Shown piece by piece: positions 24,006 through 50,127 of a stretch of DNA of 64,000 bases (position 1 is its first letter; each line of letters starts with the position of its first letter). Made by a program: the position numbers and the translations under genes. The DNA is taken from assembly GCA_005885555.1 (NCBI GenBank), contig VAWN01000023.1, forward strand, positions 241,662 to 305,661, given 5' to 3'. Under the pieces are notes generated by a model. The model did no database searches and was not told the origin of the DNA. It was given only the letters and a program-made list of their open reading frames with translations. The stretch is from Actinomycetota bacterium (lineage in GTDB: Bacteria > Actinomycetota > Actinomycetes > Mycobacteriales > Micromonosporaceae).

Positions 24006-24758
24006 TCAGGTCCGGAGGTCCCGCGCTAGGCGGCCGTTGGTCCTGTCGTCGGTGCCGGCGCCGGCTGCGGCGGTACCGGACCGGGCTCGCCCACCTCCTG
24101 ACCGCCCATGTCCAACCGGAACGGCGGGTACCGGTCGGTCATCAGCGACGCGTAGGCGGCCACCCACCCACCGGTCCATGCCGAGGATGAAGTCGTACAG
24201 CGACTGCGGGTACCGTCCGGTGAACAGCAGCACGACCACCGCGACGAGCGTCAGCAACCCGATCAGGCCGACCCCGGTCCAGCCGACGTTGTTGTTGTGG
24301 GTCTGGTAGGCCACCGCGGCACCGCCGCCGGCGAAGATGCCGACGATGATGTAGTGCGGGATGGCCAGCAGCCACCACTTGACCAGTACCAGACCGCGGG
24401 ACAGCCGCTCGGGGTAGTCCACGCTCAGGTGCGCCGGATAGTCCGGCACCTCGGCGAGCGTGAACGGCGGGTACCGGTCGGTGCCGTACGCGCCCGACGA
24501 GTAGTACGCCACCCGCCAGTACCACCGCATCACCCCGACGTTGAACTCGAAGATGCCCCGCGGGTACCGCGCCGTGAACAGGATGGCGAAGAACGCCACC
24601 ACGGTCAGCACCGCGAACGCGATCCACAGGAAGAACAGGATGATCGCGTGCGGGATGATCAGGAGCCACTTCACCAGCCACAGCCAGCGCGACAGGCCCG
24701 GATCGAGGGTGGCCTCGATGCGTGCCGGGTACCGTTCGTTCGACACCATTGCCACCAT
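24006..24758 (-). CDS. DUF4389 membrane protein with a C-terminal frameshift
   Basis: As read, 250 residues. Two related halves, each with a basic segment and membrane helices ([39 protein letters not shown]), match the DUF4389 family. The first half ends with [10 protein letters not shown]. In the second half the matching segment [14 protein letters not shown] exists only in another frame: CACC is present three times at 24161-24172, where two copies would keep the frame. In the restored frame the protein would end at 24026 after a Pro/Ala tail; as read, it ends in an Arg/Gly-rich stretch without homology. It is divergent from the GAPDH-hydrogenase operon, with a DosR-like box in between. Confidence 0.75.
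24161..24172. repeat. (CACC)3 slippage tract at the DUF4389 frameshift
   Basis: Three tandem CACC units. Removing one restores the reading frame into the conserved family ending ([17 protein letters not shown]). A tetranucleotide of this kind can change length by slippage; a sequencing error is also possible. Confidence 0.75.
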
Positions 24759-24819
24759 CCCCTTCCTCGGAAACTGGGGTGTCCCGGCTGACGGTAGGTG
24801 CCGTTGGGCCGATTGGGAC

Positions 24820-24833
24820 GGGGCGAAGGTCCC
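24820..24833. promoter_or_regulatory. DosR-like 14-bp palindrome upstream of the GAPDH-hydrogenase operon
   Basis: GGGGCGAAGGTCCC, whose complement GGGACCTTCGCCCC aligns base for base with the core of the M. tuberculosis DosR box (GGGACTWWAGTCCC). It lies 62 bp before the DUF4389 gene and 187 bp before GAPDH. The same 14-mer with one change recurs at 33510 and 41321. Confidence 0.6.
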
Positions 24834-24870
24834 GACCTGCTGGACGCGTTCGGGCGGTCACCCTGGCGCC

Positions 24871-24907
24871 GCGCGCGCCGGAGCGCGCGCTGCGCGCGCC
24901 GGAGCGC
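24871..24907. repeat. 21-bp tandem repeat of GC-only sequence
   Basis: GCGCGCGCCGGAGCGC occurs at 24871 and again at 24892. It lies in the leader region between the DosR-like box and GAPDH and could fold into stable structures. No function assigned. Confidence 0.8.
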
Positions 24908-25019
24908 GGCCTGAGATCCGCCGCGGCGGGCCGAACGGCCCGCGGTCGCGGGGACCTGGGCTCTGCCCGGTGCCGGGCCGGTCGACGAGGCTCGGAGGTG
25001 ACGAGTGAGGAGTGCCGTG

Positions 25020-26033
25020 ATGACGTACCGGGTGGCGATCAACGGGTTCGGCCGGATCGGCCGGGACTTCCTGCGCTGTGTGCTGGAGCGGGGCCTGCTG
25101 GGTCGGGGCCTCGACGTGGTCGGCATCAACGACCTGTGGGACGCGGCGACGCTGGCGCATCTGCTGGAGTTCGACTCGACGTTCGGGCCGCTGCGGTGGG
25201 ACGTGTCGCACGACGACGGCGGGTTCACCGTTGGCGGGCACCGGATTCCGGTGACCGGCCTGCGCGACCCGGCCACTCTCGGGTGGGGCGAGCTGAGCGT
25301 GGACCTGGTCATCGAGGCGACCGGCAAGCTGCGCGGCCGCGACGACGCGGCGGCGCACCTGAAGGCCGGAGCGAAGCGGGTACTCATCAGCGCGCCGGGC
25401 AAGAACGTGGACGCGACGCTGGTGGTCGGCGTGAACGAGGACATCTACGACCCGGTGCGGCACGAGATCCTGTCGGCCGCGTCGTGCACCACGAACTGTG
25501 CCGCGCCGATGGTGGCCGTGCTGCAGCACGCCTTCGGCATCGAGAACGGGTACCTGACCACGGTGCACGCGTACACCAACGACCAGGTGCTGCTGGACAC
25601 GCCGCACAAGGACCTGCGGCGGGCCCGGTCGGGTGCGGTGAACATCATCCCGACCAGTACCGGTGCGGCCAGGGCGATCGGGCTGGTCCTGCCGCAGGTG
25701 GCCGGCCGGCTCGACGGGGTGGCGCTGCGGGTACCGGTGGAGAACGGTTCGCTGTCCGACCTGACCTGCCAGCTCGCCACGCCGGTCACCGCGGCGGAGG
25801 TCAACGAGGTGTTCCTCGCCGCCTCGCGGGAACGGCTGGACGGGATCCTGCGCTACACCACCAAGCCGATCGTGTCGCGGGACGTGGTCGGCGACCCGGC
25901 CTCGTGCATCTTCGACGCCAGCCTGACCCAGGCCAGTGGCACGCTGGTGAAGGTGGTCGGCTGGTACGACAACGAATGGGGGTACACCAACCGGCTGGTC
26001 GACCTCGCGATGCTGTTCGCCGAGCTGGGTTGA
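25020..26033 (+). CDS. gap: Glyceraldehyde-3-phosphate dehydrogenase, type I
   Basis: 337 residues. N-terminal NAD-binding fold (VAINGFGRIGRDFLR), catalytic SCTTNCAAP with Cys near 155, and C-terminal GWYDNEWGYTNRL. It oxidises glyceraldehyde-3-phosphate to 1,3-bisphosphoglycerate with NAD+. ATG at 25020 (GAGGAG eight bases upstream) is preferred over GTG at 25005, which also has a good site. Its stop is two bases from the hydrogenase beta-subunit start, so it leads the hydrogenase operon instead of the usual gap-pgk-tpi unit. This suggests that NADH from glycolysis is disposed of through the hydrogenase. Confidence 0.95.
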   Translation: MTYRVAINGFGRIGRDFLRCVLERGLLGRGLDVVGINDLWDAATLAHLLEFDSTFGPLRWDVSHDDGGFTVGGHRIPVTGLRDPATLGWGELSVDLVIEATGKLRGRDDAAAHLKAGAKRVLISAPGKNVDATLVVGVNEDIYDPVRHEILSAASCTTNCAAPMVAVLQHAFGIENGYLTTVHAYTNDQVLLDTPHKDLRRARSGAVNIIPTSTGAARAIGLVLPQVAGRLDGVALRVPVENGSLSDLTCQLATPVTAAEVNEVFLAASRERLDGILRYTTKPIVSRDVVGDPASCIFDASLTQASGTLVKVVGWYDNEWGYTNRLVDLAMLFAELG

Positions 26034-26035: not shown

Positions 26036-27133
26036 GTGTCGACGTTGCTGCGGTCGCTGGGCCCGCTGGTGCGGGCGCTGCACGGCCAGGGGTACCGGGT
26101 CGTCGGGCCGACCGTGCGGGACGGCGCGATCGTGCTCGCCGAGCTCGACCGCGCCGACGCGTTGCCGTACGGCTGGGGCGTCGAGGCCGCACCGGGACGG
26201 TACCGCCTGCACCGGCGTGCCGACGCGGCCGCCTTCGGTCACGCGGCCGGACCGCAGTCGTGGAAGGCGTTCCTGCATCCGCCGCGCAGTCCACAGTGGA
26301 CAGCCGACCGCACGGCCGACGGGTTCACCGTCACCGAGGCGCCGCCGGATTCGACGCGGTACGCGTTCCTCGGGGTACGCGGATGCGACCTGCGCGCGAT
26401 CGCGGTCCAGGACCGGGTGCTCGGCGGGGCGGACGGCGGGTACGCGCGGCGGCGCCGGGAACTGTTCATCGTCGCCGTCTCCTGTACCGAGCCGGCCGAC
26501 ACGTGCTTCTGCGCCTCGACGGGATGCGGGCCGGCCGCGGGGCCCGGGTACGACCTGGGGCTGACCGAACTCGTCGACGGCGACCGGGTGCGGTACCTCG
26601 TCGAGGTGGGAACGCCCGCGGGGCTTGAGTTGCTCACGCAGCTGCCCACCGAGCCGGCGCCGGTCGATCTCGTCGAGGAGGCGGCGGCCGCGGTCGCCGC
26701 CGCCGCAACGAAGATGAGCCGCGCACTGCCCGAGGGTGACCTGCGCGACCTGCTCGCCGGCAGCCACGACGCGGCGCGCTGGGACGACGTGGCGGCGCGC
26801 TGCCTGTCCTGCGGCAACTGCACGATGGTCTGCCCCACCTGCTTCTGCACCACCGTCGAGGACGTGACCGACGTGGCGGGCGAGCACGCGGAACGCTGGC
26901 TGCGCTGGGACTCCTGCTTCGACCTGGACTTCTCGTACCTGCACGGCGGCCCGGTGCGCACGTCCACCCGCAGCCGGTACCGGCAGTGGCTGACCCACAA
27001 GCTCGGCACCTGGCACGACCAGTTCGGCGAGTCCGGGTGCGTCGGCTGCGGGCGGTGCATCGCCTGGTGCCCGGTCGGCATCGACATCACCGAAGAAACG
27101 CGAGCACTCGTCACCGAGGCCGAGGAGGCGTGA
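26036..27133 (+). CDS. hyhB: Group 3b [NiFe] hydrogenase beta subunit (iron-sulfur, HyhB-like)
   Basis: 365 residues. The N-terminal half includes FLGVRGCDLRAIAVQDRVLG and CTEPADTCFC, typical of the sulfhydrogenase beta/sulfite reductase A family. The C terminus has two ferredoxin-type cluster motifs, CLSCGNCTMVCPTCFC and CVGCGRCIAWCPVGID. It carries electrons between the gamma (flavin) and delta (small) subunits. GTG at 26036 is the only start fitting the gap after GAPDH. It overlaps the next gene by one base (TGATG). Confidence 0.93.
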   Translation: MSTLLRSLGPLVRALHGQGYRVVGPTVRDGAIVLAELDRADALPYGWGVEAAPGRYRLHRRADAAAFGHAAGPQSWKAFLHPPRSPQWTADRTADGFTVTEAPPDSTRYAFLGVRGCDLRAIAVQDRVLGGADGGYARRRRELFIVAVSCTEPADTCFCASTGCGPAAGPGYDLGLTELVDGDRVRYLVEVGTPAGLELLTQLPTEPAPVDLVEEAAAAVAAAATKMSRALPEGDLRDLLAGSHDAARWDDVAARCLSCGNCTMVCPTCFCTTVEDVTDVAGEHAERWLRWDSCFDLDFSYLHGGPVRTSTRSRYRQWLTHKLGTWHDQFGESGCVGCGRCIAWCPVGIDITEETRALVTEAEEA

Positions 27134-27594
27134 TGGAAGCCACGTACGAGCTGCTGTCCAGCCAGCCGTTCCTGGCCGGGCTCACCCCGGCCCAGCTGGA
27201 CAAGCTGTCCTACTGGACGCGCAAGTCGACGTTCCATGCCGGTACCCGGCTGTTCGAGGAGGGCCAGCGGGCGGACCGGTTCTGGCTGCTGCGCGAGGGC
27301 CACGTCACCCTCGACACGCACGTACCCGGGCAGGGTACCCAGATCGTGGAGACGCTCGGGCCGCACGCGGTGCTCGGCTGGTCGTGGCTGTTCCCGCCGT
27401 ACCGCTGGCACTTCTCGGCCAGCGCCGTGGAGACCACGCTCGCGGTGGAGCTGGACGGGCCGGGCGTGCGCGACCTGTGCGCCCGCGACCACGAGCTCGG
27501 GTACGAGCTGATGCGCCGCTTCGTCGAGGTTGTGGTGCAACGGATGCAGGCCACCCGGGTACGCCTGCTGGACCTGTACCGAATGCCGTCATGA
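27133..27594 (+). CDS. Cyclic-nucleotide-binding-domain protein of the hydrogenase operon
   Basis: 153 residues: one cNMP-binding beta-roll (FEEGQRADRFWLLREGHVTL, FSASAVETTLAVEL) and a C-terminal helix, without the DNA-binding domain of Crp. Similar small proteins occur inside group 3b hydrogenase operons of mycobacteria. It may sense a nucleotide or regulate the complex; the role is unproven. It starts in the beta-subunit stop (TGATG) and ends overlapping the gamma subunit start (ATGA), so it is expressed in step with the complex. Confidence 0.88.
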   Translation: MEATYELLSSQPFLAGLTPAQLDKLSYWTRKSTFHAGTRLFEEGQRADRFWLLREGHVTLDTHVPGQGTQIVETLGPHAVLGWSWLFPPYRWHFSASAVETTLAVELDGPGVRDLCARDHELGYELMRRFVEVVVQRMQATRVRLLDLYRMPS

Positions 27595-28388
27595 CCCCGT
27601 TGCGGTACCGGGTGCGGCGCCGCCTCACCGAGACCGCCGACACGGTGACGCTCGTGCTCGACCCGGTCGACGAGCCGATCGTGGCGCCGCTGCCCGGCCA
27701 GTTCACGATGATGTACGCGTTCGGCGTCGGCGAGGTGCCGATCTCGGTCAGCGGCCACGCCGACGGCGGCATCGTGCACACCGTCCGCGCGGTCGGTGCG
27801 GTGTCCCGTGCGGTGGCCGGCGCCCGCACCGGCGACGTGCTCGGCATCCGCGGCCCGTTCGGCACCGACTGGGGGGTACCGCCCGGTGGCGACCTCGTCG
27901 TGCTGGCCGGCGGGATCGGCCTGGCGCCGCTGCGGCCGGTGATCCGCCAGGCGGTCGCGCGGCGCGCGCGGTTCGGCACCGTCGCCGTGCTCATCGGCGC
28001 GCGCACCCCGGCGGACCTGCTGTACCCGCACGAGTACGCGACCTGGCGCGCCGCGGGGCTCGACGTGCGGGTGACCGTCGACCGCGCCGACATGAGCTGG
28101 ACCGGCCACGTCGGCGTGGTCACCACCGTGCTCGGCGCGCTGCCGGTCGACCCGGCGGCGACGACCGCGTTCGTGTGCGGTCCCGAGGTGATGATGCGCT
28201 TCGCCGCCCGCGCGCTGGTCGACCGCGGCGTGCCACCGGCCGCGGTACGGGTGTCGCTGGAACGCAACATGCGCTGCGGCGTCGGGCTGTGCGGGCACTG
28301 CCAGCTCGGGCCGCTGCTGGTCTGCCGGGACGGCCCGGTGGTCGGTTGGGACCGGGCCGCGCCGCTGCTGGCCGTGAAGGAGCTCTAG
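27591..28388 (+). CDS. hyhG: Group 3b hydrogenase gamma subunit (FAD/NAD(P) reductase, HyhG-like)
   Basis: 265 residues. A ferredoxin-NADP reductase-like FAD domain (PLPGQFTMMYAFGVGEVPIS), an NAD(P) domain (VVLAGGIGLAPLRPVI, TAFVCGPEVMMRFAARAL) and a C-terminal [2Fe-2S] motif NMRCGVGLCGHCQLGPLLVC. It exchanges electrons with NAD(P)H. The ATG overlaps the previous stop (ATGA); the following gene begins at the next base. Confidence 0.94.
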   Translation: MTPLRYRVRRRLTETADTVTLVLDPVDEPIVAPLPGQFTMMYAFGVGEVPISVSGHADGGIVHTVRAVGAVSRAVAGARTGDVLGIRGPFGTDWGVPPGGDLVVLAGGIGLAPLRPVIRQAVARRARFGTVAVLIGARTPADLLYPHEYATWRAAGLDVRVTVDRADMSWTGHVGVVTTVLGALPVDPAATTAFVCGPEVMMRFAARALVDRGVPPAAVRVSLERNMRCGVGLCGHCQLGPLLVCRDGPVVGWDRAAPLLAVKEL

Positions 28389-29156
28389 ATGGGTACCGCG
28401 CCGACGCTGGCCGTGTGGAAGTTCGCCTCCTGCGACGGGTGCCAGCTCTCGTTGCTGGACTGCGAGGACGAGCTGCTCGCCATCGCCGGCCGGATCCGCA
28501 TCGCGCACTTCCCGGAGGCGTCGCGCGCGACGGTCGAGGGACCGTACGACGTGTCCCTTGTGGAGGGTTCGGTCACCACGCCCGGCGACGTCGCGCGCAT
28601 CCACCGGATCCGGGAGCAGTCCCGGCTGCTGGTCGCGATCGGCGCCTGCGCGACCGCGGGCGGCATCCAGGCGCTGCGCAACTTCGCCGACGCCGATCAG
28701 TTCCGGTCGGTGGTGTACGCCCGGCCGGAGTATCTGTCCACATTGGACACCTCGACGCCGGCCTCCGCCCACGTACCCGTCGACCTCGAACTGCACGGCT
28801 GCCCGATCGACCGGCGGCAGCTGGTGGACACGCTCACCGCGCTGCTCGCCGGCCGAAAGCCCGACCTGCCCGGGCACAGCGTGTGCTTCGAGTGCAAGGC
28901 GCGCGGCACGACGTGCATCACGGTGGCGCGCGGCGTACCGTGCCTGGGGCCGGTCACCCGGGCCGGCTGCGGGGCGCTGTGCCCGGCGTACGGGCGCGGC
29001 TGCTTCGGCTGCTTCGGCCCGGCCGCGGTGACCAACACCCCGGCACTGGTGGACCGCCTCCGCGAGCTGGACATGACGGAGACCGACATCGGGCGCGTCT
29101 TCCGCACCTTCAACGTGCTCGCTTTCGCAGGGGGCGGCGATGACCCATCGCAGTGA
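28389..29156 (+). CDS. hyhS: Group 3b hydrogenase delta subunit (small subunit, HyhS-like)
   Basis: 255 residues. The proximal cluster motif [14 protein letters not shown] is at the N terminus; [15 protein letters not shown] and [12 protein letters not shown] follow. Further cysteines for clusters lie in [29 protein letters not shown]. No twin-arginine signal is present, as expected for a cytoplasmic group 3 enzyme. It transfers electrons between the Ni-Fe site and the beta/gamma subunits. Its 3' end overlaps the large-subunit gene by 17 bases. Confidence 0.94.
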
Positions 29157-30444
29157 CCGGTCGCTGAGTGTCGCCGGGCTCGCCCGGGTCGAGGGCGAGG
29201 GCGCCATGCACGTGCGGGTCGACGGCGCCACGGTGACCGACGTGCGACTGGAGATCTACGAGCCGCCCCGGTTCTTCGAGGCGCTGCTGGTCGGCCGCGG
29301 GTACACCGAGGTACCCGACATCACCGCCCGGGTGTGCGGGATCTGCCCGGTGGCGTACCAGATGTCGGCGTGCGCCGCGGTCGAGGACGCCTGTCAGTCC
29401 ACTGTGGACGGTACCCTCGCCGACCTGCGCCGGCTGCTGTACTGCGGCGAATGGATCGAGAGCCACGCGCTGCACATCTACCTGCTGCACGCGCCGGACT
29501 TCCTCGGGTACCCGGGCGCGGTGGAGCTGGCCCGCGATCACCGGCCGGTCGTCGAGCGCGGCCTTTCGATCAAGAAGGCGGGCAACGAACTGCTGACCCT
29601 GCTCGGCGGCCGGGCGATCCATCCGGTCAACGTGAAGGTCGGCGGGTTCTACCGGGTACCGGCGCGCGAGGAACTGCGGCGCCTCGTCACGCCGCTGCGC
29701 CGGGCGCGCGACGACGCACTGTCCACTGTGGAGTGGGTGGCCGGCTTCGAGTACCCGGACTTCGCGCACGACCACGAACTGCTGGCGCTGGTGGAGCCGG
29801 GACGGTACGCGATCGAGACGGGTACCCCGACGACCGACCGGGGGCTGACGTTCGCGGTACGGGCGTTCGAGGAGCACGTCATCGAGGAGCAGGTGCCGCA
29901 CTCCACCGCGCTGCACGCCACGCTGGCCGGGCGGGGGCGGTACCTGACCGGGCCGACCGCGCGGTACACGCTGAACCACCGGTGGCTGTCGCCGCTGGCG
30001 CGGGAGGCGGCGCGGTCGGCCGGCCTCGGTACCGGCTGCCGCAACCCGTTCCGCAGCATCGTGGTACGGGCGGTGGAGCTGGTCTACGCGTGCGACGAGG
30101 CGCTGCGGCTCATCGACGGGTACGAGCCACCGGCCGCGGCCGCGGTCGAGGTACCGCCCCGGGCCGGGGTCGGGTACGGGGCCACCGAGGCGCCGCGCGG
30201 CGTGCTTTTCCACCGGTACCGGCTGGCCGCCGACGGTACCGTCGACAGCGCCCGCATCGTCCCGCCGACCGCGCAGAACCAGGCGTGCATCGAGGACGAC
30301 CTGCGCCGCTTCGTCGCTGCCCGGCTGGATTTGAGCGACGAGCGGCTGACCTACGAGTGCGAGCAGGCGATCCGCAACTACGACCCGTGCATCTCCTGCG
30401 CCACCCACTTCCTCGACCTGCACGTGGCGCGGACCGTCCAATGA
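29140..30444 (+). CDS. hyhL: Group 3b [NiFe] hydrogenase alpha (large) subunit (HyhL-like)
   Basis: 434 residues. Ni ligands come from the N-terminal RVCGICP and the C-terminal DPCISC pair. After that pair, CATH is followed by an 11-residue tail ([11 protein letters not shown]), the usual extension removed by the maturation protease after the His (423). The protein carries the Ni-Fe(CN)2CO site and would reversibly interconvert H2 with NAD(P)H-linked electrons. It overlaps both neighbours, and the protease follows immediately. Confidence 0.96.
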
Positions 30445-30896
30445 GGACGGTCGTGATCGGGGTCGGCAACCCGTACCGCCGCGACGACGGGGTCGGCTCG
30501 GCCGTCGCCGAGCTGCTGCGGGACCTGCCCGGCGTCGAGGTCGCGCAGAGCCTGGGGGAGACCACCGACCTGATGGAGCTGTGGGACGGCGCGGACCTGG
30601 CGATCCTGGTCGACGCGATCCTCGTCGACGCGGTCCGGACCGGTCCCGCCCGGCCCGGCCGCATCCACCGGCTCAGCGTGCCGGCCGCGGGCTGCGGTGC
30701 GGCCAGCACGCACGGGCCGGGCCTGGGCGAGGCGGTGGAGCTGGCCCGGGTACTGGACCGGCTGCCCGCGCGGCTGGTGCTGTACGCCGTCGAGGTCACC
30801 GACGTCGGCCACGGGCGCGGCCTGTCGCTGCCGGTGGCCGCGGCGTCGCGGCGGCTGGCCGAGCGGATCAGAGCGGAGGTGTCCTGGTGTGCCTGA
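30441..30896 (+). CDS. Hydrogenase maturation protease (HycI/HyaD family)
   Basis: 151 residues. Begins VIGVGNPYRRDDGVGSAVAE, the family signature, with later metal-site residues (VDAIL around 55, STHGPGLGEAVEL around 90). It removes the C-terminal extension of the large subunit after Ni insertion. There is a small internal duplication (VDAILVDAV). It overlaps the large-subunit stop by four bases (ATGA). Confidence 0.93.
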   Translation: MRTVVIGVGNPYRRDDGVGSAVAELLRDLPGVEVAQSLGETTDLMELWDGADLAILVDAILVDAVRTGPARPGRIHRLSVPAAGCGAASTHGPGLGEAVELARVLDRLPARLVLYAVEVTDVGHGRGLSLPVAAASRRLAERIRAEVSWCA

Positions 30897-31102
30897 GCAT
30901 CCCGCGCCGGGTTGTCGCGATCGGCGCGGACGACACCGCAGTGGTCGACGCGTCGGGCCGGGCGCAGCCGGTGGCCCTGTTCGGCGTCGCGGCGGACGTG
31001 GGGGACTGGCTGCTGGTGCACTCCGGGATCGCGCTGGCCCGCCTCGACCCCGCCGAGGCCGAGATCCGGCTACGCCTCGTCGACCGTGCGGTCGGCGGGT
31101 AG
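30887..31102 (+). CDS. hypC: HypC/HupF-family hydrogenase assembly chaperone
   Basis: 71 residues starting with GTG as (M)CLSIPRRVV, the family's essential N-terminal Cys2. GGAGG precedes it by seven bases. HypC carries the Fe(CN)2CO unit to the large subunit. It overlaps the protease gene by ten bases and is the last gene of the operon; no hypA, B, D, E or F is present here, so they must be elsewhere in the genome. Its 3' end overlaps the convergent nitroreductase gene by 33 bases. Confidence 0.92.
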   Translation: MCLSIPRRVVAIGADDTAVVDASGRAQPVALFGVAADVGDWLLVHSGIALARLDPAEAEIRLRLVDRAVGG

Positions 31103-32080
31103 GCGCGGGGTCGCCAGCGGGCCACGCTCGCGCGGGTCGGTCAGGCCCAGCCGTAGCACGAGGTACGGCCAGGTGGTGCTGCCGAGCAGGTCGCGAAGGG
31201 CGCGGCGGGTCACGGGTACCTCGATGACCGAACTGACCGGGACCACCGACACGCCGAGCTCGCCCGCGGTCAGCCACAGCGCGGACAGCGCCTGGCCCGC
31301 GGCCAGCCAGCCCGCCGGCCGGTCCTCCTCGCCGCACAGCACCGCGTACACCGGCTCCCCGCCCGGCTCGTCGCCGACCGGAAGCGTGCCGCGGCGGCCG
31401 AAGTCGCGCTCGGGCACCGGGTTGCGCACCGGGCGCTCGGGCAGGTTCACGTCCGGCACGCCGGTGCCCGACGTGCCCGGGTCGCCGGTCCACCGGCGCA
31501 GCTCGGCGCGCCAGGCCTCGTCCGCCTGCTGGGCCTCGGTGGCCGCGGCGGCGAGCTCCGCGACCGCGGCGACCCGGTCGCGGGTGAGGTAGCGCAGGAC
31601 CGCGCCGTGCGGGCGGGCCGCGTTCGCGAGCGCCTGCATGGTCGTCTCGTCCATGCGGTCGGGGGAGACCGGCCGGCGGTCGGTGCGGCGCAACGCGGTC
31701 GCGTCGTACATGCGGATGTCCGCGCTGGTGATCGGGGCGTTGCCGGACACCGTGACCCGGGCCAGCAGGTCCGGCCGGGCCGGGTCGGGCAGCGGTACCA
31801 CCGCGGGCCGCAACCCTTGCGCCGCAAGCGCGACGAGCGCGTGGTGCAGCGCCGTGCCGCAGCTGACCGTCAGCATCCGCCCGACCGGGTCGGCGACCCG
31901 CAGCTGCCGGTCGCGGTCGGCCCACAGTTCCAGCGCGCCGTCGGCGACGTGCCAGCGCCACGGCTGCGTGTTGTGCACCGACGGCGCGTCGCCGGCCATC
32001 GCCGCGGCGTGCCGCAGCGCCTCGTCGATCTCGCGCGCGGTGCGGCGCGCGACGCCGGCCGGGATCCGGGCGCTTGCCAT
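31070..32080 (-). CDS. Acg-type nitroreductase family protein (copy 1)
   Basis: 336 residues. The N-terminal SVHNTQPWRWHV and the later RRTDRRPVSPD, RDFGRRG and GQALSALWLTAGELG segments match the Acg (Rv2032) branch of the nitroreductase fold seen in DosR regulons. Acg-type proteins bind FMN but may sequester it instead of reducing nitro compounds. The ATG at 32080 overlaps the stop of the USP gene upstream by one base (TGATG), so it is the last gene of a USP-USP-nitroreductase operon. Confidence 0.9.
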   Translation of the reverse strand: MASARIPAGVARRTAREIDEALRHAAAMAGDAPSVHNTQPWRWHVADGALELWADRDRQLRVADPVGRMLTVSCGTALHHALVALAAQGLRPAVVPLPDPARPDLLARVTVSGNAPITSADIRMYDATALRRTDRRPVSPDRMDETTMQALANAARPHGAVLRYLTRDRVAAVAELAAAATEAQQADEAWRAELRRWTGDPGTSGTGVPDVNLPERPVRNPVPERDFGRRGTLPVGDEPGGEPVYAVLCGEEDRPAGWLAAGQALSALWLTAGELGVSVVPVSSVIEVPVTRRALRDLLGSTTWPYLVLRLGLTDPRERGPLATPRLPADRTVDEA

Positions 32081-32556
32081 CACGACTCCCTCTGAGCGGG
32101 TTGCCGGGTCAGCCGCCCGGTCGCCACACCGGCCGGGCGCAGCTCGGGCAGGACGACGACCGGGCAGCTGGCGACGCCGACGCACTCGCCGGCGGTGGTG
32201 CCGTGCGCGGCCGGGAACAGCCGGGCGTACCCGTGGCTGCCCAACACCAGCAGGTCCGCGCCGCGGGCGCTTTCCAGCAGTACCGGACCGGGCCGGCCGT
32301 ACTCCGCGACGCTGTGCACCGGTACCGCGGGCTCGGTGTCGTGCGCCTCGCGGACGGCGGCGCGCAACAGGCGCAGCGCCCGCAACCGTTCGGCGTCGAG
32401 GTCGGCGTCGGTCGGCCGGTCGAAGTCCTCGGCGTGCCACGCGGCCACCGCGGTGACCACGCCACAGTGCGCGGCCGCCTCCCGTACCGCCCAGCGCAGC
32501 GCCCGCCCGCCGGCCTCGGTGCCGTCGACGCCGACCACCACCCGGTAGGCCCTCAT
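32080..32556 (-). CDS. Universal stress protein, single domain
   Basis: 158 residues. UspA fold with N-terminal VVVGVDGTEAGGRALRWAV and the ATP-binding signature LVLGSHGYARLFPAAHGTTA near 110. In actinobacteria, such USPs are DosR-regulon members that adjust metabolism in hypoxia. Coupled at both ends: ATGA overlap with the tandem USP upstream and TGATG with the nitroreductase downstream. Confidence 0.93.
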   Translation of the reverse strand: MRAYRVVVGVDGTEAGGRALRWAVREAAAHCGVVTAVAAWHAEDFDRPTDADLDAERLRALRLLRAAVREAHDTEPAVPVHSVAEYGRPGPVLLESARGADLLVLGSHGYARLFPAAHGTTAGECVGVASCPVVVLPELRPAGVATGRLTRQPAQRES

Positions 32557-41334: not shown

Positions 41335-41354
41335 GGGTCACTAGGGTGGTCCGG

Positions 41355-42461
41355 GTGGCGGACATCCTGGTTCTCAACGCGGGTTCGTCGTCGCTGAAGT
41401 GGCGGCTGTTCCGGTCCGGCGAGCCGGCCGACGGCGGCATCGTCGAGCGCATCGGGGAACCCTCCGGCGCGGTCGCCGACCACGGCGCGGCGGTGCACCA
41501 GGTCCTCGACCGGCTCGGCGGCGTCGACGCGGTCGGGCACCGGATCGTGCACGGCGGCACCCGGTTCCAGGCGCCGGTCGTCGTCGACGACGAGGTGCTG
41601 TCCGCGATCCGCGCGCTGTCCGAACTCGCCCCGCTGCACAACCCGGTCGGGGTGGCCGGCATCGAGGCGGCCCGGCACGCCATTCCGGGGGTACCGCAGG
41701 TCGCCGTCTTCGACACCGCATACCACGCGACGCTGCCGGAGGCGGCCGCCACCTATGCGCTGGACCGCGAGGTGGCGCAGCGGTACGGCATCCGCCGGTA
41801 CGGGTTCCACGGCATCTCGGTCGGCTGGGTGGCCGCCGGTACCGCCGCGTTGCTGGGCCGGCCGCTCGCCGAGCTGAACCTGGTCGTGCTGCACCTCGGC
41901 AACGGTGCCAGCGCGACCGCCGTGGCCGGTGGGCGCAGCGTGGACACGTCGATGGGCCTGACCCCGCTTGAGGGCCTGGTCATGGGTACCCGCACCGGCG
42001 ACCTCGACCCGGCCGTCGCCTTCCACCTCGGCCGGGCCGGCCTCGACCTCGCCGGCATCGAGGACGTGTACCTGCACCGGTCCGGCCTCGCCGGCCTGTG
42101 CGCGGACAACGACATGCGCCGGGTCATCGACCGTTGCTCGGCCGGCGACCCGGCCGCGCGGCTCGCCCTCGACGTGTACTGCCACCGCATCCGCAAGTAC
42201 GTCGGCGCCTACCACGCGGTACTCGGCCGGCTCGACGCGATCACGTTCACCGCCGGGGTCGGCGAGCACAGCGCCGTGGTACGGGCCCGGTGCCTGGCCG
42301 GCCTGGAACCGCTGGGCATCGCCGTCGATCGCGCTCGCAACGAGGCCGGCGACCCGGCCCGGATCGTCTCGCCGGACGGCAGCCGGGTCGCGGTCTGCGT
42401 GGTACCCACCGACGAGGAACGCGCCATCGCCGACGAGGTCGCCCGCCTCCTGCGCGCCTAG
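41355..42461 (+). CDS. ackA: Acetate kinase
   Basis: 368 residues. ILVLNAGSSSLKWRLF at the N terminus, catalytic FDTAYHATLPEAA, RRYGFHGISVGWV, VVLHLGNGASATAV, and FTAGVGEHSAVVR. It makes ATP and acetate from acetyl-phosphate. No phosphotransacetylase gene is adjacent, so acetyl-phosphate most likely comes from the nearby phosphoketolase. GTG at 41355 is chosen over the in-frame GTG at 41346 by match to the family N terminus. Confidence 0.95.
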   Translation: MADILVLNAGSSSLKWRLFRSGEPADGGIVERIGEPSGAVADHGAAVHQVLDRLGGVDAVGHRIVHGGTRFQAPVVVDDEVLSAIRALSELAPLHNPVGVAGIEAARHAIPGVPQVAVFDTAYHATLPEAAATYALDREVAQRYGIRRYGFHGISVGWVAAGTAALLGRPLAELNLVVLHLGNGASATAVAGGRSVDTSMGLTPLEGLVMGTRTGDLDPAVAFHLGRAGLDLAGIEDVYLHRSGLAGLCADNDMRRVIDRCSAGDPAARLALDVYCHRIRKYVGAYHAVLGRLDAITFTAGVGEHSAVVRARCLAGLEPLGIAVDRARNEAGDPARIVSPDGSRVAVCVVPTDEERAIADEVARLLRA

Positions 42462-42502: not shown

Positions 42503-42548
42503 ATCTTGGACGCGAGCACCCCCTGCAAGGGGTAGTCGCGTCCAAGAT
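42503..42548. terminator. Bidirectional hairpin terminator between convergent genes
   Basis: Thirteen-base perfect arms (42503-42515 and 42536-42548, ATCTTGGACGCGA and its complement) enclose a second five-base stem CCCCT/AGGGG. It lies 41 bp after acetate kinase and 41 bp after the acyl-CoA synthetase stop, so it can end both convergent transcripts. Confidence 0.85.
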
Positions 42549-42588: not shown

Positions 42589-45201
42589 CTAGGTGACCGG
42601 CTCGTGCAGTTCCCGTACCCACGGGTCCGGTTCGTCGGCGACCGGGGCGAGCCGCAGCTTCACGTCCACCGCGACCACCCCGTCCGGCCCGGCGAGTACC
42701 GGATTCAGGTCCAGCTCGGCGACCTCGGGCAGCTCCTCGGCGAGGCGACCCAGCCGCAGCACCAGATCCTCGACCGCGGCCGTGTCGACCGCCGGCCCGC
42801 CGCGGTACCCGGTCAGCAGCGGCGCGCCGCGCAGCGAGCGCCACATGCCGGCCGCGTCGCGGTCGGTGAGCGGGAGCAGGTGCAGTGCCCGGTCGGCGAA
42901 CAGGTCGGTGTTGACCCCGCCGAACCCGAGCATCACGAGCGAGCCGAACAGCGCGTCGTGCACCACGCCGGCGGCGAGCTCGACGCCGCGGACCTGGCGC
43001 TGTACCAGTACCGCCGGCGTCCCGGTCGCGGCCGCTACGGAGGTGTAGGCAGCGGCGACCGCGACGGAGTCGGTAAGGCCCAGCCGTACCGCGCCCAGCT
43101 CCGTCTTGTGCACCAACGTGGGATCGGCGGCCTTCACCACCGCCGGGTACCCGAGCGCGTCCGCGGCCGCCACCGCGTCGGCGGCGCTGCGGGCGACCCG
43201 GCCGGCCGCGACCGGGATACCGAAGCGGCGCAACAGGTTCGCCGCGACGTCGGGCGGTTGCCATCCGCCGCCGTCGCGCAGCGCCTCGTGCACGGTCGCG
43301 CGGGCGGCGGCCTCGTCGACGCCGGGCAGCACCGGTACCCTCCCCAGCGGCTGAGCCCGCCACGACGCGTACCGGGCGGCGTGCCCGAGCGCGGCGACGG
43401 CCTGTTCCGGCAGCGCGTAGACCGGCGCGCCGCCCAGCGTGTGCGGCGGTTCCGGCACCCCGAGCAGGACCACGGCGAACGGCAGCGGCGAGCGCGTCGC
43501 GGCAGCGGCGATCGCGGCGAGGACACCGGGCACGTTGTTGGCGACCGTGGCCGCGAACACCACCAGTACCGCGTCGACCCCGCCACTGTCCACAATGGAC
43601 GCCAGGGCGGCGCGCACCGCCTCCGGGGTGGCGGCGGCGCCAAGGTCCACCGGAGTCGCCGGTACCATCAGCTCCGCCGCGTCCGCGGCGTCCGCGGCGA
43701 GCACGTTGACGCCACCCGCATTGCCCACGATCGCGATGCGCCGCCCGGCCGGCAGCGGCTGTTCCACCAGCAGCCGCGCGGTGTCCAGCAGTTCGCCCAG
43801 CCCCGCGCAGCGGATGACGCCGGCCTGGGCGAACAGCGCGTCCACGGTCGCGTCGGGGGCGGCCGCGGCGGCGGTGTGCGAGGCGCCGGCCCGCGCGCCG
43901 GTGGCGGTGCGACCGCCCTTGACCGCCAGGACCGGCTTGCGCCGGCCGATCGCCCGCGCGATGCGCGCGAAGCGGCGCGGGTTGCCGACCGACTCCAGGT
44001 ACAGCGCGACGGCCCTGGTGTGCGGGTCGTCGTACCAGTAGGACAGCAGGTCGTTGCCGGACACGTCGGCCTTGTTGCCGAGCGAGACGAACGAGGACAG
44101 GCCGACCCCGGTGCGCGCGGCGTGGTCGAGGATGGTGATACCGACCGCGCCCGACTGCGAGGCCACCGCGAGCCCGCCGGACGGTGGCGTGATGGCCGCG
44201 AAGGTCGCCTGCATCCGCACGGCCGGGTCGGTGTTGAGCACGCCGAGGCAGTTCGGCCCGACGAGCCGGATGCCGTACCGGCGCGCGGTGCGCACGATCC
44301 GCGCCTGCTCGGCCCGCCCCGCGCGGCCGTCCTCGGCGAGCCCGGCGGACAGCACCACGGCCGCCCGGATCCCGGCCCGGCCGCAGTCCTCGACGGCATC
44401 GTTGACGGCCCCGGCCGGTACCGCGACGACGGCCAGGTCGACCGGCCGGCGGATGGCGGCCGCCGACGGGTACGCGGCCCGGCCGGCGACCTTGGCGGCG
44501 TGCGGGTTGACCGGGTACACCGGCCCGGTGAACCCGCCGTCGACGAGCCCGCGCAGCACCGCACGGCCGATGCCGCCCGGGTCCCGGCCGGCCCCGATGA
44601 CCGCGATGGCGTGCGGGGCGAGCAGCGGCGTCAACGAGTGCCGCTCGGCGGTGCGGTTGCGCGCCTCCAGCGCCGGGTTGTCCGCGTCGCCGGTCGGCAC
44701 GTGCACCTCCAGCACGCCGGAGTCCGGCTGTACCCGCAGCGCCGGCCCCAGGTCGCGGGCCACCTGAAGCATCGGGTTGTTGCCGACCAGTATGTCGCCG
44801 ACGAGGTCGTCGATGCCGTGGTGGCGACCGGTCGCGGCGAGCTGTTCGAGCAGCAGGGTACCGACGCCGCGACCGTGTGCGGCGTCGTCGACCAGTAGGG
44901 CGAACTCGGCGGTAGCCGGCTCGCGCAGCCGCTCGTACGAGGCCACCCCGACGACCCGGCCGCGCTCCTGTGCCAGTACCGCCACGTGGTCCTCACCCGG
45001 TGGCCGGGTGAGCCGGTCCAGCTCGTCGTCGATGCCGGCCCGCCCGCCGCCGAGGAACCGGCGGTACAGGTTCTCGTCGCTGGTGCGCCGGTACAGCGCG
45101 GCGAGGTCGGTGCGGTCGTCCGGGCCCACCGCGCGGATGCGCACGATGGCGCCGTCGGCGGTCAGGGCGTCGTGGCCGTGGTCGGTGGTGATCGTCTCCA
45201 C
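42589..45201 (-). CDS. GNAT acetyltransferase fused to ADP-forming acyl-CoA synthetase
   Basis: 870 residues. A GNAT domain occupies about 15-165 (FALLVDDAAHGRGVGTLLLE). The CoA-binding domain begins near 195 (AIAVIGAGRDPGGIGRAVLR), succinyl-CoA ligase-like domains follow with the catalytic His in GARAGASHTAAAA near 425, and the ATP-grasp domain is C-terminal (YPAVVKAADPTLVHKTELGAV). It can interconvert acetyl-CoA + ADP + Pi with acetate + ATP, and/or acetylate proteins. In the Pat/Pka type the GNAT domain is usually C-terminal, so the order here is the less common one. GTG start at 45201. It follows the DosS/T-like kinase by 56 bp. Confidence 0.9.
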   Translation of the reverse strand: METITTDHGHDALTADGAIVRIRAVGPDDRTDLAALYRRTSDENLYRRFLGGGRAGIDDELDRLTRPPGEDHVAVLAQERGRVVGVASYERLREPATAEFALLVDDAAHGRGVGTLLLEQLAATGRHHGIDDLVGDILVGNNPMLQVARDLGPALRVQPDSGVLEVHVPTGDADNPALEARNRTAERHSLTPLLAPHAIAVIGAGRDPGGIGRAVLRGLVDGGFTGPVYPVNPHAAKVAGRAAYPSAAAIRRPVDLAVVAVPAGAVNDAVEDCGRAGIRAAVVLSAGLAEDGRAGRAEQARIVRTARRYGIRLVGPNCLGVLNTDPAVRMQATFAAITPPSGGLAVASQSGAVGITILDHAARTGVGLSSFVSLGNKADVSGNDLLSYWYDDPHTRAVALYLESVGNPRRFARIARAIGRRKPVLAVKGGRTATGARAGASHTAAAAAPDATVDALFAQAGVIRCAGLGELLDTARLLVEQPLPAGRRIAIVGNAGGVNVLAADAADAAELMVPATPVDLGAAATPEAVRAALASIVDSGGVDAVLVVFAATVANNVPGVLAAIAAAATRSPLPFAVVLLGVPEPPHTLGGAPVYALPEQAVAALGHAARYASWRAQPLGRVPVLPGVDEAAARATVHEALRDGGGWQPPDVAANLLRRFGIPVAAGRVARSAADAVAAADALGYPAVVKAADPTLVHKTELGAVRLGLTDSVAVAAAYTSVAAATGTPAVLVQRQVRGVELAAGVVHDALFGSLVMLGFGGVNTDLFADRALHLLPLTDRDAAGMWRSLRGAPLLTGYRGGPAVDTAAVEDLVLRLGRLAEELPEVAELDLNPVLAGPDGVVAVDVKLRLAPVADEPDPWVRELHEPVT

Positions 45202-45257: not shown

Positions 45258-46970
<1,713 letters not shown>

Positions 46971-46994: not shown

Positions 46995-47831
46995 TCAGCG
47001 GTGCACCACGGCGACCGGGCAGTGCGCCTGATGCAGCAGCAGGTGCGTCACCGAACCGACCAGCCAGCCGGGTACCCCGCGGTGGCCGTGCTCGCCCGCG
47101 ACGACGAGCTGGGCCTCGGCGGTCGCCTCGACCAGCGCCGGACCGGGCCGCGAGCGCACCACCCGCCGGTGTACCGCGACGTCCGGGTACTTGGCCGGCC
47201 AGCGGGCCAGCGCCTCGTCCAGTACCCGGGACTCCTCGGCCGCCACCTCGTCCGGCTCGTACACCAGCGGCAGCATGTCACCCGGGCCGGACGAGGCCGG
47301 ACCGGTCCACGCGTGCAGGGCCAGCAGTGGCGCGCCGCGCAGCGAGGCCGCCTCGAAGGCGAAGCCGAGCGCGGCGTCGCCCTGCGCCGTACGGGGTACC
47401 CCGACCAGGACGTACCCGGTGGCGTCCGGCTCGCCGCGGGCGACCAGCACCGGGCAGTGCGCGTGACTGGCGACGCTGCGCGCGACCGAGCCCAGCGTCC
47501 GGCCGGCGAGGCTGTCGTGTCCCCGGTGCCCGACCACCAGCAGCGCGGCCCGCTCGGACTCCTCCACGAGGACGGCCGCGGGGTACCCGGGAACGACCTC
47601 GCTGGTGACCTTCGCCGAGTTCCCGGCGCGCTGCAGCGCCTCCCGCACCGCGCGACGGGCCACCTCGTCGGGCGACGCGACGTCCGCCCAGGCGGGGTGC
47701 GACGTCCAGGTGTTGGCGTAGACGAGCCGGACCGGCCGGTTCCGCAGTCCGGCCTCGCGCACGGCGAGGTCCACCGCACGCAGGCCGGCCGGGGAGCCGT
47801 CGATGCCGACCACGATGGGTGCGGTCATCAT
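46995..47831 (-). CDS. Universal stress protein, tandem-domain
   Basis: 278 residues. Domain 1: PIVVGIDGSPAGLRAVDLAV and LLVVGHRGHDSLAGRTLGSV. Domain 2: VLVGVPRTAQGDAALGFAF and LVVAGEHGHRGVPGWLVGSV. It heads the USP - kinase - acyl-CoA synthetase operon and is divergent from the second CBS-BON gene across a DosR-like palindrome. ATG 47831 follows GGAGG at eight bases; ATG 47828 is possible. Confidence 0.93.
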   Translation of the reverse strand: MMTAPIVVGIDGSPAGLRAVDLAVREAGLRNRPVRLVYANTWTSHPAWADVASPDEVARRAVREALQRAGNSAKVTSEVVPGYPAAVLVEESERAALLVVGHRGHDSLAGRTLGSVARSVASHAHCPVLVARGEPDATGYVLVGVPRTAQGDAALGFAFEAASLRGAPLLALHAWTGPASSGPGDMLPLVYEPDEVAAEESRVLDEALARWPAKYPDVAVHRRVVRSRPGPALVEATAEAQLVVAGEHGHRGVPGWLVGSVTHLLLHQAHCPVAVVHR

Positions 47832-47885
47832 CGCGTCAACCTCCTCGGTCGGTTCCAGCGTCGCCGCGACCGCGCGGCGGCGGCA

Positions 47886-47899
47886 GGGCCGGACGGCCC
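47886..47899. promoter_or_regulatory. DosR-like 14-bp palindrome (divergent USP/CBS-BON promoter, copy 2)
   Basis: GGGCCGGACGGCCC fits GGGNC-N4-GNCCC. It is 55 bp before the tandem USP start and 51 bp before the shared promoter element at 47937. In the paralogous region the box is 61 bp before its element, a difference of one DNA helical turn. Confidence 0.5.
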
Positions 47900-47936
47900 C
47901 TTCCCGGGTACCCCGAGGCGTTGGACCCGCCACGGT

Positions 47937-47954
47937 GGGCCGACCAGATCTGGG
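47937..47954 (+). promoter_or_regulatory. Promoter element shared with the first CBS-BON gene
   Basis: GGGCCGACCAGATCTGGG, one base different from the element at 33571 and at the same distance (49 bases) from the start chosen for the gene. Conservation across otherwise diverged intergenic DNA suggests a functional promoter part. Confidence 0.5.
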
Positions 47955-47985
47955 CGCGCCGTTTCCGGTGCGCTGCCATGGATCC

Positions 47986-48675
47986 ATGATGCGTTGGTAT
48001 GTCGGCGACGTGATGACACGTGACGTGGTGAGCGTGGCGCCGACGGCGGGGTACAAGGAGATCGCGGACCTGATGGTCCGCCGGTCGATCAGCGCGGTAC
48101 CGGTGGTGGACGCGCAACGGCAGGTGCTCGGTGTGGTCTCCGAGGCCGACCTGCTGGCCAAGCTGGAGTACGCCGACCGGGTACCGCGGCACCCGCTGAC
48201 CGCCCGCCGGATGCGCAGCGGGCAGCAGAAGGCCGCCGGGGACACCGCGGCGGAGCTGATGACGAGGCCGGCGGTCACGGTACCGGCGACCGAGACGGTG
48301 ACCGGCGCGGCCCGGTTGATGGACGCGGCGCGGGTCAAGCGGATGCCCGTGGTGGACGACGGCGGCCGGCTGATCGGCATCGTCTCCCGCCGCGACCTGG
48401 TCCGCATGTACACCCGGCCGGACGCGCAGCTGCGTGCCTCGGTCGCGGAGGGTGTGCTCCGGTCGCTGTGGATCGACCCGGCGGCGTTGCACATCACGGT
48501 ACGGGCCGGCATCGTCACGCTCTCCGGTCGGGTGGACCGGCGCAGCCTGGCCGGGATCGTGGTCGCCTTCACCCGGGCGATCCCCGGCGTCGTGGACGTG
48601 GTCGACCAGCTGTCCTGGGAGGTCGACGACGGTACGGACGACAACCGGTACCATCCGGGCTTCGCCCGCAGCTGA
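47986..48675 (+). CDS. CBS-pair plus BON domain protein (copy 2)
   Basis: 229 residues. CBS motifs VGDVMTRDVVSVAPTAGY and ELMTRPAVTVPATETV, then the BON domain (LHITVRAGIVTLSGRVDRRS). A paralogue of the protein at 33620. The start at 47986 keeps the same spacing to the shared promoter element; ATG at 47989 is equally plausible. It is followed after 93 bp by the kinase-like gene on the same strand. Confidence 0.93.
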   Translation: MMRWYVGDVMTRDVVSVAPTAGYKEIADLMVRRSISAVPVVDAQRQVLGVVSEADLLAKLEYADRVPRHPLTARRMRSGQQKAAGDTAAELMTRPAVTVPATETVTGAARLMDAARVKRMPVVDDGGRLIGIVSRRDLVRMYTRPDAQLRASVAEGVLRSLWIDPAALHITVRAGIVTLSGRVDRRSLAGIVVAFTRAIPGVVDVVDQLSWEVDDGTDDNRYHPGFARS

Positions 48676-48768
48676 CAGGGGGAGTAGGCCCCAGGGGTGG
48701 CGCATGGCAAAATAAGCCCAGGCAGCACAAATACGGCCACGCGCGGCGTCCCGGGAGGTGGCCAGGGG

Positions 48769-50127
48769 ATGCGTCCGATCGACGATGGTCCGGCGCAGCC
48801 GCGCCCCGGGTCCCGCGAGTACACCGAACCGGGCTTCGTCCACGCGGCGCGGCTGGAGCTCGACGAGCTTCTCGAACAGCTCATCAGCAGAGCGCGTGAC
48901 GTGCAGGCCGCCCGGGGCCGGCTGCGCGGGCTGCTGCGCGCCAACCTGGAGGTGGCCCGGGCGGTCGACCTCGACGAGGTGCTGCGGCACATCCTGGAGG
49001 CCGCCCGTACCCTCGTCGACGCGCGGTTCGCCGCGCTCGGCGTGGTGGAGCAGGGCCGGCTGGTGCGGTTCCTGCATGCGGGGATGGACCCGGCGACCGT
49101 TGCCTCGATCGGGTACCTGCCGGACGGCAAGGGCCTGCTCGGCCGGCTCATCGACTACCCGGAACCGCTGCGGCTGCCGGACATCGCCGGGCACCTGTCG
49201 TCGGTGGGGTTCCCTGAGCGGCATCCGCCGATGCGCTCGTTCCTCGGGGTACCCGTCCGGGTGGGGCAGCGGGTCTTCGGCAACCTGTACCTGACCGACA
49301 AGCAGGGCGCCGACGGGTTCAGCCACGACGACGAGGAGCTGGTACTGGCACTGGCCGGGGCGGCCGGCGTGGCGATCTCGCACGCCGCGCTGTTCGCCGA
49401 GGCGCAGCGCCGGCAGGAGTGGCACGCGGCGATGGTCGCGATGACCACCGCGCTGACCGACGAGGAACCCGCGCGGGGGCTGACCCGGATCGCCCAGCAC
49501 GCCCGGGCCGTGTGCACCGCGGCGGGTACCGCGATCTGCATACCCGCCGAGGAGCCCGACCAGCTTCGGGTGGTGGCCACCGAAGGGTGCTGCGAGCCCT
49601 GGCTCGGTGCGCTGCTCCCGGTCGCCGGCTCGGTACCGGGGGAGGCGCTGACCGGACGCCGGCCGGTCGTGGTCACCGACCCGGCCGCCGATCCGGGTAC
49701 CGCCGGGTGGCTCGGCGCGGCGGCCGGGCCGCTGGTGGCGGTACCCCTGGTGAGCGACCTGGCGGTCAGCGGCGTGCTGCTGGTGTGCCGGTACCCCGAC
49801 GGCGGCCCGTTCGACCGGGTGGAGCTGGAGATGCTGACCGCGTTCGGCATCCAGGCGGCGCTGGCCCTGCAGCTGGCCGAGGCCCGCGCGGACAACGACC
49901 GGCTGCGCCTGGTCGAGGAGCGCCAGCACATCGGCGAGGACCTGCAGCGCCGGGTCGTCCAGCGGCTGTTCCGGCTGGGCCTGGAGCTGCAGGGCGTCGC
50001 CGGGCGTACCACCGACGGCCAGGCCCGGGAGACGATCAGCGCCAAGGTCGAGGAGATCGACGCGGTCATCCGCGAGATCCGCGCCGCCGTGTTCTCCCTG
50101 CGCCCCACCGGCGACCAGTCCGGGTAG
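48769..50127 (+). CDS. DosS/DosT-like GAF sensor without phospho-acceptor His or ATPase domain
   Basis: 452 residues. GAF-A (about 65-210) keeps His152 in [16 protein letters not shown], the haem-ligand position. GAF-B follows (about 235-370). The dimerisation helices are recognisable (DLQRRVVQRLFRLGLELQGV), but Gln393 stands where the kinase has its phospho-acceptor His, and the protein stops about 55 residues later with no HATPase domain. The stop is followed by unrelated sequence, so it ends as a clean short protein. It may sense gas and modulate the true kinase by forming mixed dimers, or be a decaying paralogue. ATG at 48769 follows GGGAGG; a longer frame from GTG 48697 is less likely. 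Confidence 0.85.
   Translation: MRPIDDGPAQPRPGSREYTEPGFVHAARLELDELLEQLISRARDVQAARGRLRGLLRANLEVARAVDLDEVLRHILEAARTLVDARFAALGVVEQGRLVRFLHAGMDPATVASIGYLPDGKGLLGRLIDYPEPLRLPDIAGHLSSVGFPERHPPMRSFLGVPVRVGQRVFGNLYLTDKQGADGFSHDDEELVLALAGAAGVAISHAALFAEAQRRQEWHAAMVAMTTALTDEEPARGLTRIAQHARAVCTAAGTAICIPAEEPDQLRVVATEGCCEPWLGALLPVAGSVPGEALTGRRPVVVTDPAADPGTAGWLGAAAGPLVAVPLVSDLAVSGVLLVCRYPDGGPFDRVELEMLTAFGIQAALALQLAEARADNDRLRLVEERQHIGEDLQRRVVQRLFRLGLELQGVAGRTTDGQARETISAKVEEIDAVIREIRAAVFSLRPTGDQSG

Follow-up and report, generated by a model that had tools for sequence, protein, structure and literature searches.

We analysed a 64,000-nucleotide window of contig VAWN01000023.1 from an actinomycetotal genome of the family Micromonosporaceae (GCA_005885555.1; 6.7 Mb in 197 contigs, 73% guanine plus cytosine (GC)), calling genes by codon bias and assigning families by Pfam and NCBIfam scans. 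The window carries a DosR-type island of about 26 kb in which the gene families named in a preliminary description were all recovered in place. With the DUF4389 membrane protein gene at 24006-24749 as its probable left edge, the island comprises 26 genes; in a relative (G029, contig 30), a DUF4389 match adjoins a kinase match. The preliminary description had listed, without comment, a truncated DosS/T-like protein, and the scans bear out its architecture of two GAF domains without HATPase. We regard this protein, here called the haem-GAF stub, as the unusual part of the island. The genes for the DosR-type regulator and the full-length haem-GAF kinase lie 9 kb apart, and the stub follows a CBS-BON gene:

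36338-36976, plus strand: DosR/OsdR-type response regulator (Pfam), whose best solved match is M. tuberculosis DevR, 3c3w (E = 1.3e-74)
45258-46961, minus strand: complete DosS/T-type haem-GAF sensor kinase (GAF-GAF-HisKA_3-HATPase; Pfam), retaining the haem His, H-box, N-box and G1 box
47986-48675, plus strand: CBS-BON protein 2 (Pfam)
48769-50127, plus strand: haem-GAF stub with GAF-A, GAF-B and a dimerisation hairpin, without an ATPase domain

Pfam recognises GAF-A, GAF-B and a HisKA_3-like hairpin in the stub and returns no HATPase match. GAF-A matches DosS and DosT both by sequence and by fold (root-mean-square deviation 1.7-2.9). DosS binds haem through His149, discriminates between ligands by the distal Tyr171 and autophosphorylates at His395 (PMC4082495). 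By alignment, the stub retains the haem ligand as His152 and the distal residue as Tyr174, and it carries Gln at the position of the phospho-acceptor His. Because of this Gln and the missing HATPase domain, the protein is a DosS relative and not a DosS kinase. In common with DosS and DosT it has GAF-B, the dimerisation hairpin and a GAF-A that contains both the proximal His and the distal Tyr (PMC4082495), whereas it has neither a phospho-acceptor His nor any part of the ATPase domain. The structural model (mean predicted local distance difference test score 83.7; predicted template modelling score 0.64) contains helices at residues 350-413 and 417-444, after which the chain reaches its C-terminus.

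The stub belongs to a family of similar proteins. A database search with it returned 2,779 proteins at E ≤1e-60 among 7,992 scored, and counts out of 120 here and below refer to the best 120 of the 2,779, the window stub included. All 120 are 403-506 residues long, with no ATPase domain listed for any of them; every one keeps the haem His and distal Tyr, and every one ends no more than 28 residues after the hairpin. At the acceptor position, Arg is present in 67, Gln in 30, His in 22 and Gly in one, so that the His is gone in 98, and the His-Asp pair is intact in two. No match to an ATPase Pfam family was found in 29 stub members scanned. Downstream of 18 ATPase-less genes we detected no clear ATPase remnant (the two matches obtained, with E = 0.03 and 0.04, are at chance level), and the same search recovered the domain in 4/4 kinase controls at 1e-25 or better. 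In a first comparison, the acceptor His and both ATPase boxes were gone from all five stubs, while all 27 other DosS-type proteins retained the His, one of them (L033) without ATPase boxes. Among 79 named loci read, with L133 left out of the count as not readable in frame, the ATPase boxes are missing from 10, of which 8 have also lost the His.

Phylogeny points to a single group. A tree of 86 rows, calculated by a quick method from GAF columns only with the hairpin excluded, included 17 of the 120 database proteins and a thinned set of Streptomyces kinases; support was measured by the Shimodaira-Hasegawa-like approximate likelihood-ratio test (SH-aLRT), without bootstrap. In this tree, a branch with 99% SH-aLRT support separates 37 stubs, five of them with the His, from all other rows. 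Three DosS-type proteins that lack ATPase boxes and keep the acceptor His (L114, L135 and L033) were placed among the kinases, and we regard them as separate truncations or assembly errors. Mean pairwise identity in GAF-A is 64% among stubs and 62% among kinases; the corresponding stub values are 44% for the hairpin and 37% for GAF-B. Over the tree columns, the stubs of three genomes of the family (G134, G138 and G193) are identical to the ones found in Pseudosporangium ferrugineum, Dactylosporangium vinaceum and Nucisporomicrobium flavum, respectively; the first two species belong to Micromonosporaceae, in line with the assignment of the window to this family. The window's own genome encodes a second stub (L048, C80:483-1831), 54% identical and likewise without acceptor His or ATPase domain, and a universal stress protein (USP) match directly follows it (C80:1950-2381).

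At a strict threshold (E 1e-97), the stub was found in 11 of 200 family genomes. A DosR orthologue (E 1e-95) is present in 150 of the 200 and in all 11 stub genomes, a coincidence expected by chance at about 4%. The strict subset is largely confined to its family, since the same threshold recovered 1 of 396 genomes in a phylum sample, namely the window's own. More distant stubs among the named-genome matches listed come from Pseudonocardia acidicola and two Actinomycetospora. Both stub and DosR could be placed in nine of the 11 stub genomes: on different contigs in two and on one contig in seven, where five pairs are 6, 7, 12, 17 and 25 kb apart. Island-type genes occur within 10 kb at seven of eight named stub-clade loci, with none at Pseudonocardia acidicola (L091). 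In Actinoplanes solisilvae (L087), the stub comes after hydrogenase genes on the same strand.

The other 22 genes of the island and its OsdR-type sites are as follows:

24006-24749, minus strand: DUF4389 membrane protein (PF14333), sharing its intergenic region with the site at 24927
25020-26033, plus strand: type I GAPDH (Pfam; TIGR01534 above cut-off; active-site SCTTN)
26036-27133, plus strand: hydrogenase iron-sulphur (beta) subunit (Fer4_22)
27133-27594, plus strand: cyclic-nucleotide-binding-domain protein (PF00027), within the hydrogenase operon
27591-28388, plus strand: hydrogenase NAD(P)-binding (gamma) subunit (Pfam, NCBIfam)
28389-29156, plus strand: hydrogenase small (delta) subunit (PF01058)
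29140-30444, plus strand: [NiFe] hydrogenase large (alpha) subunit, 3b-like (PF00374; nickel-site motifs CGIC and CISC)
30453-30896, plus strand: hydrogenase maturation protease (PF01750)
30887-31102, plus strand: HypC-type chaperone (PF01455)
31070-32080, minus strand: Acg-like nitroreductase 1 (PF00881)
32080-32556, minus strand: USP 1, one Usp domain (PF00582)
32553-33428, minus strand: USP 2, two Usp domains (PF00582)
33620-34291, plus strand: CBS-BON protein 1 (Pfam)
34278-35234, minus strand: Acg-like nitroreductase 2 (PF00881)
35231-~36229 (start approximate), minus strand: Acg-like nitroreductase 3 (PF00881; translation)
36956-37957, minus strand: Acg-type nitroreductase 4 (NCBIfam Acg model NF047509, 330 bits, cut-off 199)
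37939-40302, minus strand: phosphoketolase (XFP; Pfam)
40302-40730, minus strand: Ddn-like deazaflavin reductase, borderline (PF04075, 22.2 bits, cut-off 22)
40750-41235, minus strand: USP 3, one Usp domain (PF00582)
41346-42461, plus strand: acetate kinase (PF00871)
42589-45201, minus strand: fusion of GNAT and ADP-forming acyl-CoA synthetase, GNAT-ACD (Pfam)
46995-47831, minus strand: USP 4, two Usp domains (PF00582)
24927-24942: OsdR-type site, score 13.9 (matrix scan)
33509-33585: two OsdR-type sites, at 33509 (10.3) and 33570 (11.7) (matrix scan; exact word GGGACCTTCGGCCC)
41320-41335: OsdR-type site, score 10.3 (matrix scan; whole-genome word search)
47885-47900: OsdR-type site, score 16.2, the window's highest (matrix scan)

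The four USP genes thus carry six Usp domains. Two assignments of the preliminary description stand in part. The four genes it called Acg-type nitroreductases all belong to the nitroreductase family, and the one at 36956-37957 passes the Acg model, the other three having been tested by Pfam only; its Ddn-type nitroreductase clears the Pfam cut-off narrowly and falls below that of TIGR00026 (34.8 vs 46.35).

The scoring matrix was built from Table 1 of PMC5069765, which prints 26 OsdR site sequences; some of these were tested there by electrophoretic mobility shift assay. At a score of at least 10, the window holds five sites in 1,760 bases of island intergenic DNA, one in 5,309 intergenic bases outside the island and none in coding DNA. 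At a cut of 6 the corresponding numbers are 8, 12 and 46; cuts from 6 to 10 all point in the same direction, and the excess becomes clear only at about 8 and above. The island's intergenic DNA was simulated 300 times with a Markov model; the observed five was reached in no simulation at a cut of 9 and in one at 8. The exact word GGGACCTTCGGCCC has two copies in the 6.7-Mb genome, both in the island, and 18 places match it with at most one mismatch, three of them within the island. Five of the 15 near-copies elsewhere were inspected; two are intergenic and two lie inside long open frames. One near-copy (L170, C12:7428-7441) stands just before an Rv2632c-like gene, which is likely a further regulon member; we take Rv2632c to lie near DosR-regulated genes in M. 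tuberculosis. Another (L172, C20:2534-2547) is flanked by a tandem USP gene and a trehalose-synthase-like gene. Two looser patterns were discarded: the symmetric box GGGACNNNNGTCCC with two mismatches had 48 window matches against 113 expected, showing no excess and being uninformative at 73% GC, and GGGNCNNNNGNCCC occurred at 273 genome places against 651 for its backward control.

The strong sites occupy four intergenic regions between divergent genes and head same-strand runs (gaps of at most 93 bases, from which operons were inferred) that cover 23 of the 26 genes. From 24927, DUF4389 is read leftward and the eight genes from GAPDH to HypC rightward. The pair at 33509/33570 faces USP 2, USP 1 and nitroreductase 1 on one side and CBS-BON 1 on the other. 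At 41320, USP 3, the Ddn-like gene, phosphoketolase and nitroreductase 4 lie opposite acetate kinase, and at 47885, USP 4, the kinase and GNAT-ACD lie opposite CBS-BON 2 and the stub, which starts 93 bases behind CBS-BON 2 under this strongest site. The three genes without a strong site are DosR and nitroreductases 2 and 3, whose common region has a best score of 6.3.

Comparison with relatives separated a recurring core from a changing periphery. DosR, the kinase, nitroreductases and USPs recur in the relatives' islands, and phosphoketolase, acetate kinase, GAPDH, GNAT-ACD and the hydrogenase vary in set and order; movement of the block as a single unit, a possibility raised in the preliminary description, is not what the relatives show. 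One fetched relative (G022, contig 116) has nearly the same gene set, with identities of 92% for DosR, 84% for phosphoketolase, 78% for GAPDH, 73% for the kinase, 69% for acetate kinase and 67% for GNAT-ACD, the last being split over two frames in G022. The hydrogenase is present in 11 of 61 genomes. Among the DosR-type matches listed (55-100% identity), it shares a contig with one in eight of the 11, the window's own genome included, and the distance is at most 59 kb in seven of these (own genome, G018, G025, G040, G043, G054 and G056, but not G039); in G003, G006 and G034 the two are on separate contigs. A cyclic-nucleotide-binding-domain protein also occurs within the hydrogenase clusters of G018, G040, L087 and L089.

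The metabolic genes fit a fermentative role. Phosphoketolase yields acetyl phosphate, which acetate kinase converts to acetate with formation of ATP; reduced NAD(P) comes from GAPDH, and a hydrogenase can release the electrons as H2. The hydrogenase has its alpha, beta, gamma and delta subunits and both nickel-site CxxC pairs, and its best NCBIfam models are sulfhydrogenases, far below the equivalog cut-offs (261 vs 700 bits). In GNAT-ACD, the motifs ASHTAA and LVHKTE (SHT, HK) align with a solved 4-hydroxybutyrate-CoA ligase, and we take both His motifs to be catalytic in a phosphate relay. Its N-terminal GNAT domain (Pfam), as in the Streptomyces PatA-type protein acetyltransferase, matches 4nxy, presumably the PatA GNAT domain, at E = 7e-17. 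The idea that GNAT-ACD only acetylates proteins, its synthetase half being dead, is weakened by the retention of both His motifs. The fermentation reading is coherent, with the direction of the reactions in the island inferred.

The island is best read as one co-regulated low-oxygen programme, because the sites head 23 of its 26 genes and the DosR/kinase/nitroreductase/USP association recurs in relatives; induction by low oxygen and DosR binding are predicted. The single programme proposed in the preliminary description from gene families and shared palindromes thus survives as the best reading, and the grouping exceeds chance both in the concentration of sites in island intergenic DNA and in the co-location of the core genes elsewhere. 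As the families suggest, under low oxygen the full-length kinase would phosphorylate DosR, which would bind the palindromes in the four divergent intergenic regions and turn on the USP, Acg and CBS-BON genes, along with the phosphoketolase-acetate kinase route to ATP and the GAPDH-hydrogenase electron outlet.

The stub is predicted to bind oxygen through its haem GAF-A and to pair with the full-length kinase via the hairpin. A mixed dimer of this kind, built from the island's two proteins, would contain a single acceptor His and a single ATPase domain where a kinase dimer has two of each, and therefore phosphate flow to DosR should fall. That the stub in this way forms mixed dimers with the kinase, likely reduces phosphate transfer to DosR and tunes the oxygen threshold of the island is our tentative proposal, held with slightly less than even confidence. 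Because it lies behind CBS-BON 2 under the strongest site, the stub may also increase as the response proceeds and provide feedback. More broadly, it is possible, if somewhat doubtful, that the DosR islands of Micromonosporaceae and some Pseudonocardiales house an old family of oxygen-sensing pseudokinases, DosS relatives that retain the haem pocket and the hairpin for dimerisation, no longer have an ATPase domain and in most cases bear basic or neutral residues in place of the catalytic His-Asp pair, and that these proteins are oxygen-gated inhibitory subunits of the DosS-DosR switch. Acetyl phosphate from the island's phosphoketolase may add a second layer by priming DosR, a metabolic feed-forward loop; acetyl phosphate phosphorylated OsdR in vitro in PMC5069765.

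Several observations weigh against these proposals. The acceptor His is still present in 22 of the 120 stubs, hairpin identity is lower among stubs (44%) than among kinases (59%), stub and DosR are more than 400 kb apart in two genomes, and no DosR match lies within 10 kb at any of the eight named stub-clade loci. As for the sites, the cut of 10 was chosen after the scores were known, 10 of 300 simulated sets match the observed number at a cut of 7, most of the sites underlying the matrix are themselves predictions (PMC5069765, accessible part), and the best site in DosR's own promoter region is the one scoring 6.3. The metabolic genes might be separately regulated and the island no more than neighbours without a common programme, as the shuffling of modules among relatives and the lack of a strong site for DosR and two nitroreductase genes would allow. 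The enrichment of sites in the island, the genome-wide rarity of the word, the hydrogenase near a DosR-type regulator in seven of the eight genomes with both on one contig (matches listed) and the listing of Hyh as dos-regulated in M. smegmatis (PMC8125079, accessible part) make this improbable.

Stub homodimers might instead act directly on DosR, the hairpin docking on the receiver domain and shielding or holding it in an oxygen-dependent manner with the kinase untouched. Basic residues at the His-Asp positions (Arg-His in 47 of the 120) and the retention of the hairpin throughout would suit such docking, the variable acceptor position (Arg, Gln, His or Gly) would not, and we consider it unlikely. 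A phosphatase role appeared less likely, with Gln five residues on in 60 of the 120 and Asp in 17. The stub could also be a haem or gas store, or signal to another partner, without effect on DosR; GAF-A is its best conserved part, the genome has a paralogue on another contig (C80), and the >400-kb distances concern two of the nine genomes with known places. Since the dimerisation hairpin is kept and island-type genes adjoin seven of eight named stub-clade loci, we give this little credence. Decay or frameshift of a kinase gene is very improbable: the frames are open in all stubs read, which form one well-supported clade, no clear ATPase remnant follows 18 genes (kinase controls 4/4), the haem residues persist in 120/120, and the ratio of nonsynonymous to synonymous substitution rates is 0.28-0.33 for close stub pairs. 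In favour of decay are the higher ratios of distant pairs (0.46-0.82, unreliable at such divergence and GC) and the three other ATPase-less proteins scattered among the kinases.

Physical clustering, presented in the preliminary description as a departure from the scattered mycobacterial genes, is not new. The S. coelicolor osdRK region already clusters a DosR-type regulator, a haem-GAF kinase, USPs and a nitroreductase, with eight predicted OsdR sites, and the palindrome word AGGGACCTTCGGCCCC, common to the island and S. coelicolor, is printed for SCO0167 and SCO0216 (PMC5069765). It differs in having nitrate reductase, pyruvate phosphate dikinase and alcohol dehydrogenase, and a hydrogenase, phosphoketolase, acetate kinase or kinase-less sensor is not among the genes named in the accessible part of that report. 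The M. smegmatis dos regulon likewise has a dos-regulated hydrogenase, Hyh, and Acg, whereas the accessible part of PMC8125079 names neither a kinase-less DosS nor phosphoketolase. In the open-access PMC literature we found no fitting report of a kinase-less DosS, of DosR in Micromonosporaceae or of phosphoketolase in a DosR regulon. DosR-type islands and the dos-regulon hydrogenase being already known, the stub family is the new element. We take Caulobacter DivL to be neither a haem-GAF protein nor a DosS relative. It resembles our proposal for the stub in being a pseudokinase, a kinase relative that modulates its partner kinase CckA (PMC12471899, accessible part). DosR switches control dormancy in bacteria, and the way in which they acquire their oxygen threshold is difficult to probe experimentally; a haem partner without kinase parts, naturally present and conserved, would offer a direct handle on it. 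Because sites of one kind precede phosphoketolase, acetate kinase, GAPDH and the hydrogenase alike, the fermentative survival of such actinomycetes could be examined at a single locus.

Two further features were seen in the window. The acetate kinase and GNAT-ACD genes converge on a stretch with a 13-base inverted repeat at 42503-42548 (ATCTTGGACGCGA ... TCGCGTCCAAGAT), perhaps a two-way terminator. After the stub, at 50204-50524, a short open frame resembles by eye the start of a family-2 glycosyltransferase and is apparently a fragment.

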